Below are positions 21,900 through 26,594 of a stretch of DNA of 40,439 nucleotides, one piece after another. Origin of the DNA: Verrucomicrobiota bacterium (GTDB lineage: Bacteria > Verrucomicrobiota > Verrucomicrobiia > Opitutales > Opitutaceae). Position 1 is the first letter of the stretch; the number at the start of each line of letters is the position of its first letter. The position numbers were made by a program, and so were the translations under genes. The notes below the pieces were generated by a model, which saw nothing but the letters and a program-made list of their open reading frames with translations, searched no databases and was not told the DNA's origin. The stretch is taken from the NCBI GenBank assembly GCA_025352985.1, contig JANXRL010000091.1, positions 1 to 40,439 on the forward strand. The letters are read 5' to 3'.

Positions 21900-22997
21900 A
21901 TGTCCGACCTTTCGACTCTCGTTCTGCCGCACATCCAGAAACTGCACGCCTATACGCCCGGTCTCCAGCCTGCCGAACCCGGCTGGGTGAAGCTCAACAC
22001 CAACGAGTGTCCGTATCCGCCCAGCCCGCGCGTCGCCACCGCCATCCGCGCCGAGCTTGCCGAGGACGGAGAACTGCTCCGCCTCTATCCCAATCCGAAG
22101 AGCACACCGCTTCGTCAACTCGTCGCCAAGATCCACGGCCTCCGTGAAGAAAACGTCCTCATCGGCAACGGCTCCGACGATGTCCTGAATCTTCTCGTGC
22201 GCGTCTTCGGCGGGCCGTCTGCGGCGACCGGTTTCACGCTGCCGAGCTACTCGCTTTATCCCGTCCTCGTTGCGATCAACGACGGCGCAACCACTGTCAT
22301 CGAGTTCGACCGCTCGATGAAACTACCTGTCGATAAAATCGCTGCATCCGGAGCTCGCGCGTTTTTCCTCACGTCGCCCAACGCGCCTACCGGCGTCGCG
22401 TTCAGCAACGCCGAGCTCGCTGCCGTTCTGGATAAATTCTCTGGCGTGCTCGTGGTGGACGAAGCTTACGCCCCGTTCGCGAAGGAAAACGCCGTCCCGC
22501 TGCTCGCGCGTTATCAGAATCTCGTCATCACGCGCACGCTCTCCAAGGCCCATGCCCTCGCCGGTCTGCGTGTCGGCTACGCGCTCGCGAGCTCTACCGC
22601 GATCGAGTTGCTCGACCGCGTGCGCGACAGCTACAACGTCAACCGTCTCTCGCAGGCCGGCGCTTATGCCGCGCTCGCCGACACGGGTTACTACGACGCG
22701 ATCATCGGAAAGATCATCTACACCCGCGATTATTGGGTGAGCGACTGGTCGGATCGCCTTGGCTGGTTCATCTATCCCTCGCAGACCAATTTTATCTTTG
22801 CCGAGCCGAAAAACGCCCGCGGCGAAACCGGTCCGGCGGTCGCGAAATCGCTCTACGATTTCCTCCTCACGCAGAAGATCCTGGTGCGTGCCTTCCCCAG
22901 CAACGCCTTGACCGCGCCTTTCCTGCGCATCAGCGTCGGTAGCGATGACGAAATGTTCGCCGTTAACACCGCAATCAACGTTTGGTTGAAGATGTAA
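21900..22997 (+). CDS. hisC: Histidinol-phosphate aminotransferase
   Basis: PLP-dependent fold-type I enzyme transferring the amino group to imidazole acetol phosphate. The 365 residues contain KLNTNECPYPPSP, GNGSDDVLNLLVR, the aspartate region VLVVDEAYAPF and the PLP lysine in TRTLSKAHALAGLRVGYAL. Intact and of normal length. Together with hisD upstream and hisB-hisH downstream it forms a histidine cluster, which is interrupted behind this gene by a retroelement. Confidence 0.97.
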   Translation: MSDLSTLVLPHIQKLHAYTPGLQPAEPGWVKLNTNECPYPPSPRVATAIRAELAEDGELLRLYPNPKSTPLRQLVAKIHGLREENVLIGNGSDDVLNLLVRVFGGPSAATGFTLPSYSLYPVLVAINDGATTVIEFDRSMKLPVDKIAASGARAFFLTSPNAPTGVAFSNAELAAVLDKFSGVLVVDEAYAPFAKENAVPLLARYQNLVITRTLSKAHALAGLRVGYALASSTAIELLDRVRDSYNVNRLSQAGAYAALADTGYYDAIIGKIIYTRDYWVSDWSDRLGWFIYPSQTNFIFAEPKNARGETGPAVAKSLYDFLLTQKILVRAFPSNALTAPFLRISVGSDDEMFAVNTAINVWLKM

Positions 22998-23135
22998 TTG
23001 AACTACGCAAGCAGGTGGCAGTGGTTCCAAGCCAGAAGGCTTAAACTTGGGGAATTGTATTGTCGCAAAAAATTTTTCTCGCTGCGCGCGGGCGGCATCA
23101 CATCTGGCTTTCTTTTACAATTCTATAACTAAAAT

Positions 23136-24143
23136 ATGAGAAAAATCCAGCTACTCAAAGCTGCTGCGGTAGCGGCCTTCATGATGGCAGGCGGCGCGTT
23201 GAGCGCGCAGGCGCAAATCACGATCCCTACTGTGACGGTGGGTAATGTCGGCAATTCCGTCGATACCAGCACCTACGGGGCGGTGGGCTACAGCTACGCC
23301 ATCGGCACCTATGAGGTGACGACGAATCAATATACGTCATTCCTGAATGCGGTGGCGGCGACGGATACGTTTAGCCTCTATGATACGAACATGGATTCGT
23401 CGCAGTATGGTGGCATCACGCGTTCCGGTTCGTCGGGCAGCTACAGCTACGCGGTGAAGAGCGGCTTTGAGAATAAGCCGGTGAACTAAGTGTCGTTCTG
23501 GGATGCGACGCGCTTTGCGAACTGGCTGAACAACGGGCAGGGCAGCGCAAGCACGGAGACAGGCAGCTACACGCTGGGTAGCGTGACGAATCCGGTGAAC
23601 AGCTCCGTGACGCGCAATGGAGGGGCGAACTGGGTGGTGGCGAGTGAGAACGAGTGGTATAAAGCGGCGTATTACGACCCGACGAAGAATAGCGGCGCGG
23701 GCGGCTACTGGTTGCACGCGACACAGAGCGATACGCTCGGACAAAACAACCCTTTCACGGATACGAACGGGGCAAATTATAACGATGGGGATTTTGCGGT
23801 TTTTACGGGCAGCGACGACGGAGCGCTGCCCGTCGGCACTTATGTTAACGCGCAAAGTTTTTACGGCACCTTCGACCAAGGGGGTAACCTATTTGAGTGG
23901 AACGAGGCGATTGTCTCTGGCCCCAGTCGTGGGCGGCGGGGCGGCTCGTGGGACTTCAACGAGAGCGGCCTGCGGTCCTCGGGCCGGTTCGGCAGAGTCG
24001 CGGCGGGCGGGAGCTACGACTTAGGTTTCCGTGCTGCCAGCCTCGCGCCTATACCCGAGCCGAGCACCTATGGGGCCGCGATGGGAGTAATGGCGCTCGG
24101 AGTCGTGATGATGCGACGCAGGAAGGTGCGCGGCACTCTTTGA
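23136..24143 (+). pseudogene. DGR target: exported FGE/SUMF1-like variable protein with PEP-CTERM anchor, interrupted by a stop
   Basis: One reading frame from ATG 23136 to TGA 24141-24143 (335 codons) broken only by TAA at 23487-23489. The part before has a signal peptide (about residues 1-26, ending SAQA) and the FGE opening YAIGTYEVTTNQYTSFLNAV. Directly behind the stop the frame goes on with VSFWDATRFANWLNNGQG; family members read KPVNYVSFWDA, so the stop probably replaced a tyrosine codon (TAC/TAT to TAA). Later come ENEWYKAAYYDP and DQGGNLFEWNE, the C-type-lectin-like fold, then the variable repeat RGGSWDFNESG to GFRAAS. The end is a PEP-CTERM signal: PEPST (about 24054-24068), a hydrophobic segment and RRRK, which is processed by an exosortase for surface attachment. 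Translation of the second half from GTG 23490 would lack the signal peptide. Confidence 0.88.
23938..24047 (+). repeat. DGR variable repeat (VR)
   Basis: This 110-base segment aligns without gaps to 25590-25699. By hand count 77 positions are identical. Of 33 differences 21 fall on template adenines (14 A to G, 7 A to T, none A to C). In the central 80 bases 21 of 30 template adenines are changed but only 5 of 50 other bases. It encodes RGGSWDFNESGLRSSGR and the following residues up to GFRAASL of the target. Seventeen codons differ in a way that includes an adenine change. The few changes at other bases, mostly at the 3' end, point to time passed since the last homing event. Confidence 0.88.
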
Positions 24144-24164
24144 ACTTTTAACCTTTTACCCTTT

Positions 24165-24197
24165 CCGTAGGGCTTCACGCGAGGTGAGGCCTTACGG
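24165..24197 (+). repeat. Hairpin/cruciform downstream of the VR
   Basis: CCGTAGGGCTTCAC (24165-24178) pairs with GTGAGGCCTTACGG (24184-24197) as a 14-pair stem with two G-U pairs and a GCGAG loop. It begins 22 bases after the target's stop codon and 118 bases after the VR. Hairpins shortly behind the VR help target recognition in studied DGRs, but there they lie much closer. Here the PEP-CTERM anchor separates the two. It lacks a T run, so it is not a simple terminator. Confidence 0.5.
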
Positions 24198-24209
24198 GAA
24201 CCAGAACGA

Positions 24210-24241
24210 GACCCGGCCTTAAGGCCGGGTCGAATTTTTTT
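24210..24241 (+). terminator. Intrinsic terminator behind the DGR target
   Basis: GACCCGGCCTT (24210-24220) and AAGGCCGGGTC (24221-24231) form a perfect 22-base palindrome, followed by GAA and a T run (24235-24241). Without a spacer the loop must open a few central pairs. It likely ends the target transcript before avd, so that avd and the reverse transcriptase would be transcribed separately or by read-through. Confidence 0.7.
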
Positions 24242-24334
24242 GGAGACCGACTATGTAGCCAAATCCAAAGCCCAAGGAGCCTGCGCCGTCACCGCATTCT
24301 GCGGCTGCGCAGGCCGCGCCGCTGCGTAAAAGCG

Positions 24335-24670
24335 ATGAGCTGCCAGGTGCTGCTGGTGCGTTGGTATGAGGTGGTGAAGTGGCTGCTGGAGCGGGTGGAG
24401 AGTTTTCCAAAAAACCAGCGCTTCATTTTCGGTCAGAGGGTGGCCGATGCGACGCTCGACATTATGGATCTGCTGGTGGAAGCGGCCTACCGGAAAGAGA
24501 AACGGGAGGTGCTGGTGCGGGCCAATCTACGCCTAGAACGGCTGCGCTGGCTGCTGCGGCTGGCGCGGGAGCGAAATCTGCTGACGGCGCGGCAACAGGA
24601 ATTCGTGGCGGAGCAATTCCTCGAGTGCGGCAAGATGCTCGGTGGCTGGATAAAGGCCAGTGCGGCCTGA
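24335..24670 (+). CDS. avd: DGR accessory protein Avd, N-terminus probably broken
   Basis: Avd is a small basic four-helix bundle that forms a pentamer and binds the DGR reverse transcriptase and template RNA. The 111 residues from ATG 24335 show the family pattern: WYEVVKWLLERVESFPKNQRF, FGQRVADATLDIMDLLVEAAY, the basic RANLRLERLRWLLRLARER and LTARQQEFVAEQFLECGKMLGGW, read in parts. In the other frame the preceding bases encode a typical Avd lead-in ending APLRKSDELP, which would join VLLVRW if one G in 24345-24347 were removed. That upstream frame opens with ATG 24253 followed at once by TAG. So the original gene seems to have lost its first 30 or so residues to a +1 frameshift and a stop. 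The four-helix core may still be made from ATG 24335, which has no good ribosome-binding site. Confidence 0.82.
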   Translation: MSCQVLLVRWYEVVKWLLERVESFPKNQRFIFGQRVADATLDIMDLLVEAAYRKEKREVLVRANLRLERLRWLLRLARERNLLTARQQEFVAEQFLECGKMLGGWIKASAA

Positions 24671-24712
24671 AAAGTCGCACGGCACGCGTAGAAAAAACGA
24701 AGCACGACGACG

Positions 24713-25850
24713 ATGGCGCGATCTTTTGGCGCACTTTGGGAGCGCATCACCTCGTTGGAGAACCTGTTCGCGGCGGCGGAAGAGGCGATGCAGGGTAAAC
24801 GGTGCACGGGCGCGGCGGCCCGCTCCTTCGCGCGCTGGGAGGAGGAGTGCGTGCGCCTGCGTCTAGCGCTGCGGGACGAGAGCTGGCGGCACGGGCCGTA
24901 TACCTATTTCACAATCAGCGACCTAAAGGAGCGGGTGGTGGCGGCAGCGACTTTTCGCGACCGGGTGGCGCACCATGCCGCTGATGCGGGTGCTCGAGCC
25001 GCTGCTGGATCCAACGCTGGTGGAGGACACCTTCGCGTGCCGCCGGGGTAAAGGCACGCACGCGGCTATGGCGCGGGCGCGGGAGTATACCCGGCGTTAT
25101 CCGTATTTCTTGAAGTGCGATATTCGGAAGTATTTCCCCTCGATCCCGCACGTGCGGCTGGCGATGCAGTTGGCCGGGCGGTTGCGCGAGGCGACGGTGC
25201 GAGGAATGATCGCGGAGATCCTCGCCAGCCATGCGGCCGCCGAGGAGCAGGTGTGACCGGGCGAAGACCTGCTGGCGGTGGAGGTGAGGCGGCGGGGGCT
25301 GCCGATCGGGAACCTGACGAGCCAGTTTTTCGCCAATCTCTACCTCGATCTGCACGAGCATTTCATCAAGCAGGAGCTACGGGTGCCGGGCCACGTGCGT
25401 TACGTGGATGACTTTATCCTCTTCGGCGAAGATAGGGCGCAGGTGCGGGAGTGGGGCGCGCATGTGAAGGCGTTTGTGCGCGGGCTGGAGTTGAGCATCC
25501 ACCCGGATAAATACCGCTGCGGGCCGACGGCGGGCGGGGTAGATTTCTGCGGGTTCGTGGTGTTTGCCGACGGGCGGATACGGTTGCGCGGGGCGGTTCG
25601 TAGAACAACAACGAGAATATCCTTCGGTCCTCGAACCGGAACGACAACGACGCGACGAACGAGAACAACAACATCGGTTTCCGCGTCGTCAGCCTCTGGA
25701 CCGAGGAGCGCCGCGAGGCGCGCTTCGCCAGCCCGACGGGCCAGAACGCGACGGGCCCGGCCTCGGCGCGCCGTGCCACGTCCGGAGGCACCGGTGCGTC
25801 CCGTGTGGGCCGACGGCGCTCTCGCGAGCGACGGCGGTGCAGGCGAATAA
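24713..25850 (+). pseudogene. DGR-type reverse transcriptase, frameshifted, interrupted and C-terminally truncated
   Basis: The first frame (from ATG 24713) has the DGR start RSFGALWERITSLENLFAAA, YTYFTISDLKERVVAAA and FRDRVAHHA. At 24977-24980 one extra base shifts the frame; the match goes on as LMRVLEPLLDP, FACRRGKGTHAAMARA, and LKCDIRKYFPSI with the first catalytic aspartate. TGA at 25254-25256 (probably from a TGG) breaks this frame, which then continues with RRRGLPIGNLTSQFFANLYL, the DGR-specific IGNLTSQ box (25305-25325), and RYVDDFILFG with the catalytic YVDD (25401-25412). Homology ends near 25588 after VDFCGFVVFADGRIR, where the sequence passes directly into the template repeat; the usual C-terminal thumb of roughly 80 residues is missing. 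The open frame runs on to 25850 through non-coding sequence. Confidence 0.88.
25590..25699 (+). repeat. DGR template repeat (TR)
   Basis: Adenine-rich copy of the VR, with many AAC codons when read in the VR frame: RGGS-stop-NNNENILRSSNRN, then DNDATNENNNIGFRVVSL. AAC-rich templates are typical since AAC can mutate to many residues without giving a stop. Unusually the tryptophan codon after RGGS is TAG (25601-25603) here and TGG in the VR, so a copy unchanged at that adenine would stop translation of the target. The TR touches the truncated end of the reverse transcriptase gene instead of lying in a separate spacer. Confidence 0.88.
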
Positions 25851-25881
25851 GTGCGGAGTCGCCCCGCTGCGGTCGGTAAGT

Positions 25882-25905
25882 GCGCCGGTGGTTTTCCGCC
25901 GGCGC
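25882..25905 (+). repeat. Stable hairpin between TR and hisB
   Basis: GCGCCGGTGG (25882-25891) and CCGCCGGCGC (25896-25905) form a ten-pair stem with one U-G pair and a TTTT loop. No T run follows directly; GTATTTTT comes 21 bases later. The 300 bases between the TR and hisB (25700-25997) hold no recognisable gene, only this hairpin and very GC-rich sequence. It may be the 3' end of the TR RNA or a weak terminator. Confidence 0.45.
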
Positions 25906-25997
25906 GCCCAAGGCCGTGGCGGGGTATTTTTCGCAAGTGGCCTCCGTTCTTGTCTTTGGCCGTGATAACGCGTGAAACTCAAGTTGTAACCCATTAT

Positions 25998-26594
25998 ATG
26001 CCCGCTTTGCGCACAGTAACTCTCTCCCGCAAGACCGCCGAAACCGACATCGCGCTCACGCTCGCCGTCGACGGCACCGGCGTGTCGAAAATCGACACCG
26101 GTGTCCCGTTCTTCGACCACATGCTCACGCTCTTCGCGAAGCACGGCCTCTTCGATCTCGACGTGACGTGCGACGGCGACGTCGCCGTCGATTATCACCA
26201 CACCGTTGAGGACGTCGGCCTCGTGCTCGGCGACGCCTTCAAGAAGGCGCTGGGCGACAAGCTCGGCATCAAACGCTACGGTTTTTTCCTGCTGCCCATG
26301 GACGAATCGTTGGCGCGTGTCGTCGTGGACATCGGCGGACGTCCGCATCTCGCCTATCAGGTCGAGGCGTCGACGCAGTTCGTGCGTGATTTTAATATTA
26401 TCTTGGTGAAGGAATTTTGCCGTGCGTTCAGCAACGCGCTCGGCGCGAACCTCCACGTCACGCTGATCTACGGCGAGGAGCCGCACCATGTTGCCGAGGC
26501 CATCTTCAAGGGCCTCGCACGTGCTCTCGATACCGCCACCCAGATCGAGCCGCGCGCGGCTGACCAATTGCCTTCCACCAAGGGCAAGATTTGA
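25998..26594 (+). CDS. hisB: Imidazoleglycerol-phosphate dehydratase
   Basis: Manganese enzyme of histidine synthesis converting imidazole glycerol phosphate to imidazole acetol phosphate. ATG 25998 gives 198 residues, the monofunctional length (no phosphatase domain). Metal-binding motifs are intact: [30 protein letters not shown] and the second repeat [19 protein letters not shown]. The open frame extends upstream to 25851 but this part is GC-rich non-family sequence. It is separated from hisC by the retroelement. Confidence 0.97.

Follow-up and report, generated by a model that had tools for sequence, protein, structure and literature searches.

A probable insertion of a cellular diversity-generating retroelement, since decayed, between hisC and hisB of an Opitutaceae-like bacterium

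Results

A retroelement cassette between two his genes

The window analyzed here, 40,439 nt of contig JANXRL010000091.1, carries the parts of a diversity-generating retroelement (DGR) between hisC and hisB; the best explanation is very probably that a cellular, Avd-type DGR entered the genome of an Opitutaceae-like bacterium at this junction and has since decayed. As the original prediction had it, the parts follow one another on the plus strand in the order target gene with variable repeat (VR), avd, reverse transcriptase (RT) and template repeat (TR). A homologous DGR occurs in a congener, the metagenome-assembled genome (MAG) Opitutus sp. GAS368 isolate ZE-03apr19-77 (G009; L084/L054). The features are listed below in window positions, which are used throughout.

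21900 to 22997, plus strand: hisC, intact, 365 amino acids (Aminotran_1_2, 160.7 bits)
22998 to 25997, plus strand: insert of about 3.0 kb between hisC and hisB, relative to 12 congeners
23083 to 25924, plus strand: segment homologous to the G009 DGR, left limit approximate, right limit sharp
23136 to 24143, plus strand: target gene with a signal-peptide-like start, predicted FGE/C-lectin-type body, VR and PEP-CTERM tail, interrupted by an in-frame stop (23487 to 23489)
23936 to 24044, plus strand: VR, paired with the TR
24051 to 24125, plus strand: PEP-CTERM sorting tail 3′ of the VR (TIGR02595, 17.1 bits; cut-off, 16)
24210 to 24241, plus strand: terminator-like hairpin and T run 3′ of the target, kept in G009
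24335 to 24670, plus strand: avd core, open from an internal ATG (NF033474 DivGenRetAVD of NCBIfam, 101.5 bits; cut-off, 80)
24713 to about 25589, plus strand: RT remains in three pieces, matching phrog_1423
25588 to 25696, plus strand: TR, paired with the VR
25697 to 25924, plus strand: RNA 3′ of the TR, together with the TR 94% identical to G009 (rest, 82%)
25858 to 25931, plus strand: terminal RNA hairpin, model R1, outer stem 25862 to 25873 with 25913 to 25924 (41.7 bits, the sequence itself being in the model)
25998 to 26594, plus strand: hisB, intact, 198 amino acids (IGPD, 205.2 bits)

The Avd score, the RT motifs, the RT tree described below and the A-biased repeat pair together support assignment of the element to the DGRs. 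Avd exceeds the cut-off of its NCBIfam family and also scores 62.8 bits against Pfam bAvd (cut-off, 40), whereas the broken RT matches phrog_1423 in pieces of 72, 81 and 103 bits that retain the predicted IGNLTSQ and YVDD motifs. Over 109 ungapped nt, TR and VR differ at 21 of the 31 A positions and at 10 of the 78 others (Fisher p ~4e-8), and the differences thus show the A bias on which the original prediction had staked itself. The non-A differences fall on T (6/16) and C (4/33), with none on G (0/29). In G009, TR and VR differ at 20/32 A and 0/78 non-A positions. Part of the excess in the window exists because its TR has drifted from that of G009, with 9/115 differing positions spread over all four bases; the window VR nevertheless differs from the G009 TR at 9/82 non-A positions over 115 nt, and drift of the TR therefore explains the non-A changes only partly.

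A pattern search of the bacterium's own genome recovered exactly two TR/VR-type sites. A DNA search with the TR and its 3′ part returned strong matches only to itself and G009, but it missed the window's own VR, and the pattern search was used instead to exclude further VRs. The genome has a single RVT_1 match; together with the two repeat sites, this means that no second RT was found that could act in trans.

Decay of the cassette

The target gene is interrupted by the stop at 23487 to 23489. The RT gene has a frameshift near 24974 and a stop at 25254 to 25256, and its C-terminal part was lost by a deletion that joins RT to TR, with about 209 nt missing relative to G009, a size taken from coordinates. 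Homology to the G009 RT ends at 25595 and homology to its TR begins at 25588, and this 8-nt overlap looks like the trace of a deletion between short repeats. The avd leader is also broken, its upstream start (24253) directly preceding a stop, whereas the core remains open. Non-A positions of both TR and VR show drift. The original prediction placed the cassette at 23136 to 25905 without plainly stating its decay: location and parts were borne out, but target, RT and avd leader are interrupted, and the right end lies at about 25924, within an insert of about 22998 to 25997 relative to congeners.

From these lesions, which argue against mutagenic retrohoming in this genome, the cassette is almost certainly dead here, and because of this decay the DGR is not to be read as a working one. 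Ratios of nonsynonymous to synonymous divergence (dN/dS) between window and G009 are 0.06 to 0.17 for the RT, which was therefore under selection for most of its history; with the Avd pieces included, values of 0.05 to 0.17 imply that the lesions arose late in comparison with the divergence of the two copies. It is quite unlikely that the DGR is still active, its breaks being sequencing or assembly errors or somehow bypassed. The open Avd core, 96% identical to that of G009, and the TR with its 3′ RNA as the best-preserved part (94%) would suit such a reading, but several independent lesions, the deletion of RT sequence up to the TR among them, the drift of TR and VR at non-A positions unlike in G009, and the lack of any other RT found in the genome all contradict it.

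The empty site in congeners and a second location in G009

The genus set comprised 13 genomes, including the window's own, all recovered by a hisB search. None of the 12 congeners has an insert here: their hisC runs 16 or 22 nt into hisB, whereas the two genes of the window, both still complete, are separated by 3,000 nt. The HisC protein aligns over its full length with those of the congeners at 80 to 89% amino acid identity where their copy is complete. This comparison bears out the claim that the cassette splits an otherwise continuous his cluster, its flanking genes being intact and in the same direction. The nearest congeners by HisB, G005 (95%) and G006 (93%), gave neither an RVT_1 match nor a TR/VR pattern in assemblies that are only 88 and 87% complete.

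The G009 DGR has the same gene order as the window and an unbroken RT, and it occupies another locus, which shares contig and strand with hisB and lies about 20 kb downstream of it. The RT pieces are 88 to 93% identical to the G009 RT, Avd is 96% identical over 108 amino acids, and the DNA aligns (blastn) at 82% over 23083 to 25595 and 94% over 25588 to 25924. The copy elsewhere therefore indicates that the cassette is not tied to one locus. Synonymous p-distances between window and G009 are 0.20 to 0.41 for the RT, Avd and target pieces and 0.10 for a 27-codon piece after the VR, mostly lower than those of eight neighboring open reading frames (ORFs; 0.39 to 0.64, leaving out a ninth at 0.17 whose dN/dS of 1.13 suggests a wrong frame). 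The lower divergence of the DGR parts fits movement or transfer within the genus.

Two ORFs flanking the G009 DGR (L054:4957-6366 and L054:42-824), an IS1380 transposase (397.9 bits) and a tyrosine recombinase-like ORF (18.2 bits, under the Pfam cut-off of 27.1), are possible carriers. In the window, the neighbors are hisD, hisC, hisB, hisH, rpoA, guaA, citrate synthase, pdxJ and similar genes. A PHROGs scan of 10 neighboring proteins found no phage structural or replication gene, in keeping with the predicted cellular DGR without a visible phage gene; two housekeeping proteins among them, GMP synthase-like and HisC, had PHROG matches, which were read as shared metabolic families. An unrecognized prophage or other mobile element that inserted with the cassette is very unlikely. 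The G009 flanks lend this idea some appeal, but the DGR fills the whole insert of about 3.0 kb, the genes on either side of it are those just named, and no transposase or integrase was found among the window ORFs tested.

It is scarcely credible that the hisC-DGR-hisB order is ancestral and that 12 congeners lost the cassette, even if a low frequency of DGR-type RTs is seen throughout the family; the tight overlap common to all 12 and the different locus of the DGR in the sole congener bearing one contradict it. Of 252 genomes of the family, 22 gave an RT match at E ≤ 1e-20; in eight of these, among them the window's genome and G009, a match reaches at least 40% identity. Avd exceeds its cut-off in only 2/56 relatives. 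Two further arrangements were seen. In G147, which belongs to a different genus of this family, avd and RT are preceded by two diverged repeats (L259:1701-1833 and 2208-2337) instead of the RT being followed by a TR, and there are short dispersed repeats around avd. The genus member G002 has 31 RVT_1 matches in a 4.2-Mb genome, many near-identical in score, probably reflecting a recent expansion of one RT element.

RT kinship and comparison with known DGRs

The RT tree has 37 rows, comprising 28 DGR RTs, with the window entered as its three pieces joined with X, and nine comparison RTs, called group II-like from YADD motifs and scores rather than a family scan; retrons were outside the tree. 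Window and G009 pair at 100/100 within a nine-row clade (100/98) of Verrucomicrobiota, Planctomycetota and two further bacterial rows, and the DGR rows split from the group II-like RTs at 100/100, so the RT does not fall with the latter, the placement against which the original prediction had asked to be judged. The chance that the RT is that of a group II intron or retron next to a fortuitous repeat is negligible: the best NCBIfam scores of RT pieces B and C do belong to group II models, but at 43 and 41 bits they are far under the cut-off of 300, the intact G009 RT reaches 117 of the 300 bits for group II and 39 of the 235 for retron St85, and tree placement, IGNLTSQ, Avd and the A bias of TR/VR all oppose it.

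Among the genome contigs searched, the closest relatives of this DGR RT after G009 are six cellular ones, 51 to 58% identical to the G009 RT: those of a Prosthecobacter MAG (L085), a Verrucomicrobiaceae MAG (L086), Rubritalea profundi (L087), L088, L089 and an Isosphaera MAG (L090). Viral contigs reach 37% among the best 80, and phage records 36.5% among the 15 of 147 matches listed. The six share the RT clade of the window; their TR follows the RT, and the targets, read in five of the six, have a PEP-CTERM-like tail after the VR. L085 and L086 differ from the window in VRs that have 1-nt indels relative to the TR and leave the tail out of frame. The window DGR is a decayed member of a Verrucomicrobiota/Planctomycetota lineage with PEP-CTERM-like target tails.

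The DGR of Bordetella phage BPP-1 (NC_005357) likewise unites target-VR, Avd, TR and RT in one cassette, and the accessible part of PMC12875486 describes a structured spacer 3′ of its TR, as in the window; unlike the window DGR, it is phage-borne, has the TR before the RT and targets Mtd. Thiohalocapsa PB-PSB1, as far as the available text of PMC10907252 goes, resembles the window in its degenerate, pseudogenized DGR loci and in mobile elements shaping them, but it is a multilocus system in which intact loci supply the function, whereas the window has just one locus, decayed and lying within a biosynthetic operon.

A structured RNA after the TR

The RNA fold of 25690 to 25931 has a z-score of −3.2 and is better than 199/200 shuffles, and the outer stem of its terminal hairpin closes at 25924, the right end of homology to G009. 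At 30 loci, inspection by eye identified hairpins built alike, with RGUAG, a variable loop and CGAAMG enclosed between the two strands of a stem; examples 3′ of a TR include L085:6745-6796, L086:9319-9370, L088:2112-2164 and L090:2939-2994. In 20 aligned hairpins, 10/12 pairs have changes in both partners, and base pairing holds in 88.8% of cells (36 to 50% in slid controls). Outside model building, R1 matched 17/66 loci at E ≤ 1 (nine with E < 0.01), all on the RT strand and 33 to 312 nt from the RT; 15 of the 66 had previously been looked at by eye, and 13 of the 51 unseen loci match. A set of 18 matches from 50 unused loci (E ≤ 5, one far from the RT), its alignment fitted to the model, has double changes in 11/12 pairs.

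Several points weigh against this RNA element. The pairing percentage is inflated, the hairpins having been chosen partly by stem energy; 49/66 unused loci gave no match at E ≤ 1, nor did six of ten unaligned eye-picked elements (L092, L102, L113, L119, L128 and L130), L128 being recovered only at E 4.1. An extra match (E 1.3), in L126, is distant from the RT, one group II-like comparison locus scores 15.8 bits (E 0.6), and only two weak matches beside an RT came from the 60 of 80 viral loci searched. Rfam gave nothing at gathering score across seven sources; below it, matches in L085 (25 of 64 bits) and in the window (18 of 112 bits) were taken as chance.

The BPP-1 spacer folds and recruits RT-Avd, according to the accessible part of PMC12875486, and we take the terminal RNA element as the counterpart of that spacer region, where R1 itself has no convincing match (its top score there on the relevant strand is 4.6 bits). 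A 9.2-bit partial match just after mtd/VR1 is probably chance. The hairpin, with its RGUAG and CGAAMG motifs and covarying stem, may be a 3′ domain that is common among the template RNAs of cellular DGRs but has yet to be catalogued. This is the milder and better supported version of a bolder idea: homology ends on the right exactly where the hairpin does (25924) and on the left shortly before the target begins, so that the moved unit might have been the transcript itself, and whole cassettes might occasionally reach new loci through RNA copied by the DGR RT, in the manner of their group II intron relatives. We regard this as a long shot.

The target protein and its tail

DGRs typically have the VR at the C terminus of the target. 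Here, a putative PEP-CTERM tail stands 3′ of the VR, just above cut-off in TIGR02595 and at 18.2 bits under the 20.7 cut-off of Pfam PF07589; because of the upstream stop, it is unlikely to be made as protein. By orthology with the G009 target (FGE-sulfatase, 80.8 bits; ~71 to 76% amino acid identity), the VR appears to lie in a C-lectin-type ligand-binding protein. FGE and PEP-CTERM are both above cut-off in the Rubritalea target and only FGE in L085 and L086; L090 has no family match in the stretch scanned. Translation of the window, L085, L086, L087, L088 and L090 shows a PEP-CTERM-like tail after the VR, that of L090 being a PGP variant recognized by eye; in G009 the tail is preceded by a stop, and the contig of L089 does not reach the target. 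Exosortase is encoded in 13/13 genus genomes, the window's own included; the sorting machinery is therefore present, and the target was plausibly sorted to the surface.

The G009 target stops just before its PEP box (L054:3164-3250, minus strand), though its TR and VR look fully active. Relative to their TRs, the VRs of L085 (L085:4720-4919) and L086 (L086:7221-7417) have two 1-nt insertions and one 1-nt deletion, respectively, which put the PEP-CTERM tail out of frame and represent either retrohoming slips or assembly errors at hypervariable sites. As for expression signals, a sigma-70 promoter scan found none (0.5 expected), and three terminator-like sites against 2.9 expected in shuffles are weak evidence alone.

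Discussion

While the element worked, RT-Avd would, by homology with known DGRs, have driven mutagenic retrohoming: reverse transcription of the TR RNA together with its structured 3′ part, during which bases were incorporated at random opposite A, after which the cDNA took the place of the VR towards the 3′ end of the target. The result would have been a diversified binding face on a C-lectin-type (FGE-like) protein whose PEP-CTERM tail could have let the exosortase system of the host sort it. The cassette presumably moved or was transferred within the genus.

Several observations weigh against an inserted and decayed DGR of this kind. The ends of the insert have no terminal repeats or target-site duplication above chance level (longest direct repeat, 7 nt; longest inverted, 6 nt), and its G+C content (0.613 against 0.603 for the window) bears no sign of foreign origin. 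Lower synonymous divergence could instead reflect stronger constraint on the DGR, and the window target pieces have no FGE match of their own. Finally, the source assembly is fragmented (199 contigs, 92% complete); an RT elsewhere could have been missed, and misassembly is possible.

Cellular DGR clades and targets with signal peptides have been reported (accessible part of PMC8144416), as have degenerate loci of DGRs, their horizontal transfer and their carriage by transposons (PMC10907252, in the text available). Decay and mobility of DGRs are thus known in kind; the window adds an exact empty site in a his operon and a PEP-CTERM-tailed lineage. We found no paper joining "diversity-generating retroelement" and "PEP-CTERM" in a searched literature that mostly excludes subscription papers.

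An empty site, insertion and decay in one genus, together with a sister copy elsewhere, make this a stand-alone cellular DGR dated by comparison, and the spread of DGRs without phage or transposon genes becomes directly testable. If the covarying hairpin is confirmed, it would help to locate DGR template RNAs and to compare them with the RT-Avd-recruiting spacer of BPP-1. With a hypermutated C-lectin-type domain coupled to a tail beyond the VR, frameshifts in the VR could decide whether the protein is anchored; the G009 protein, as it stands, would be secreted without an anchor.

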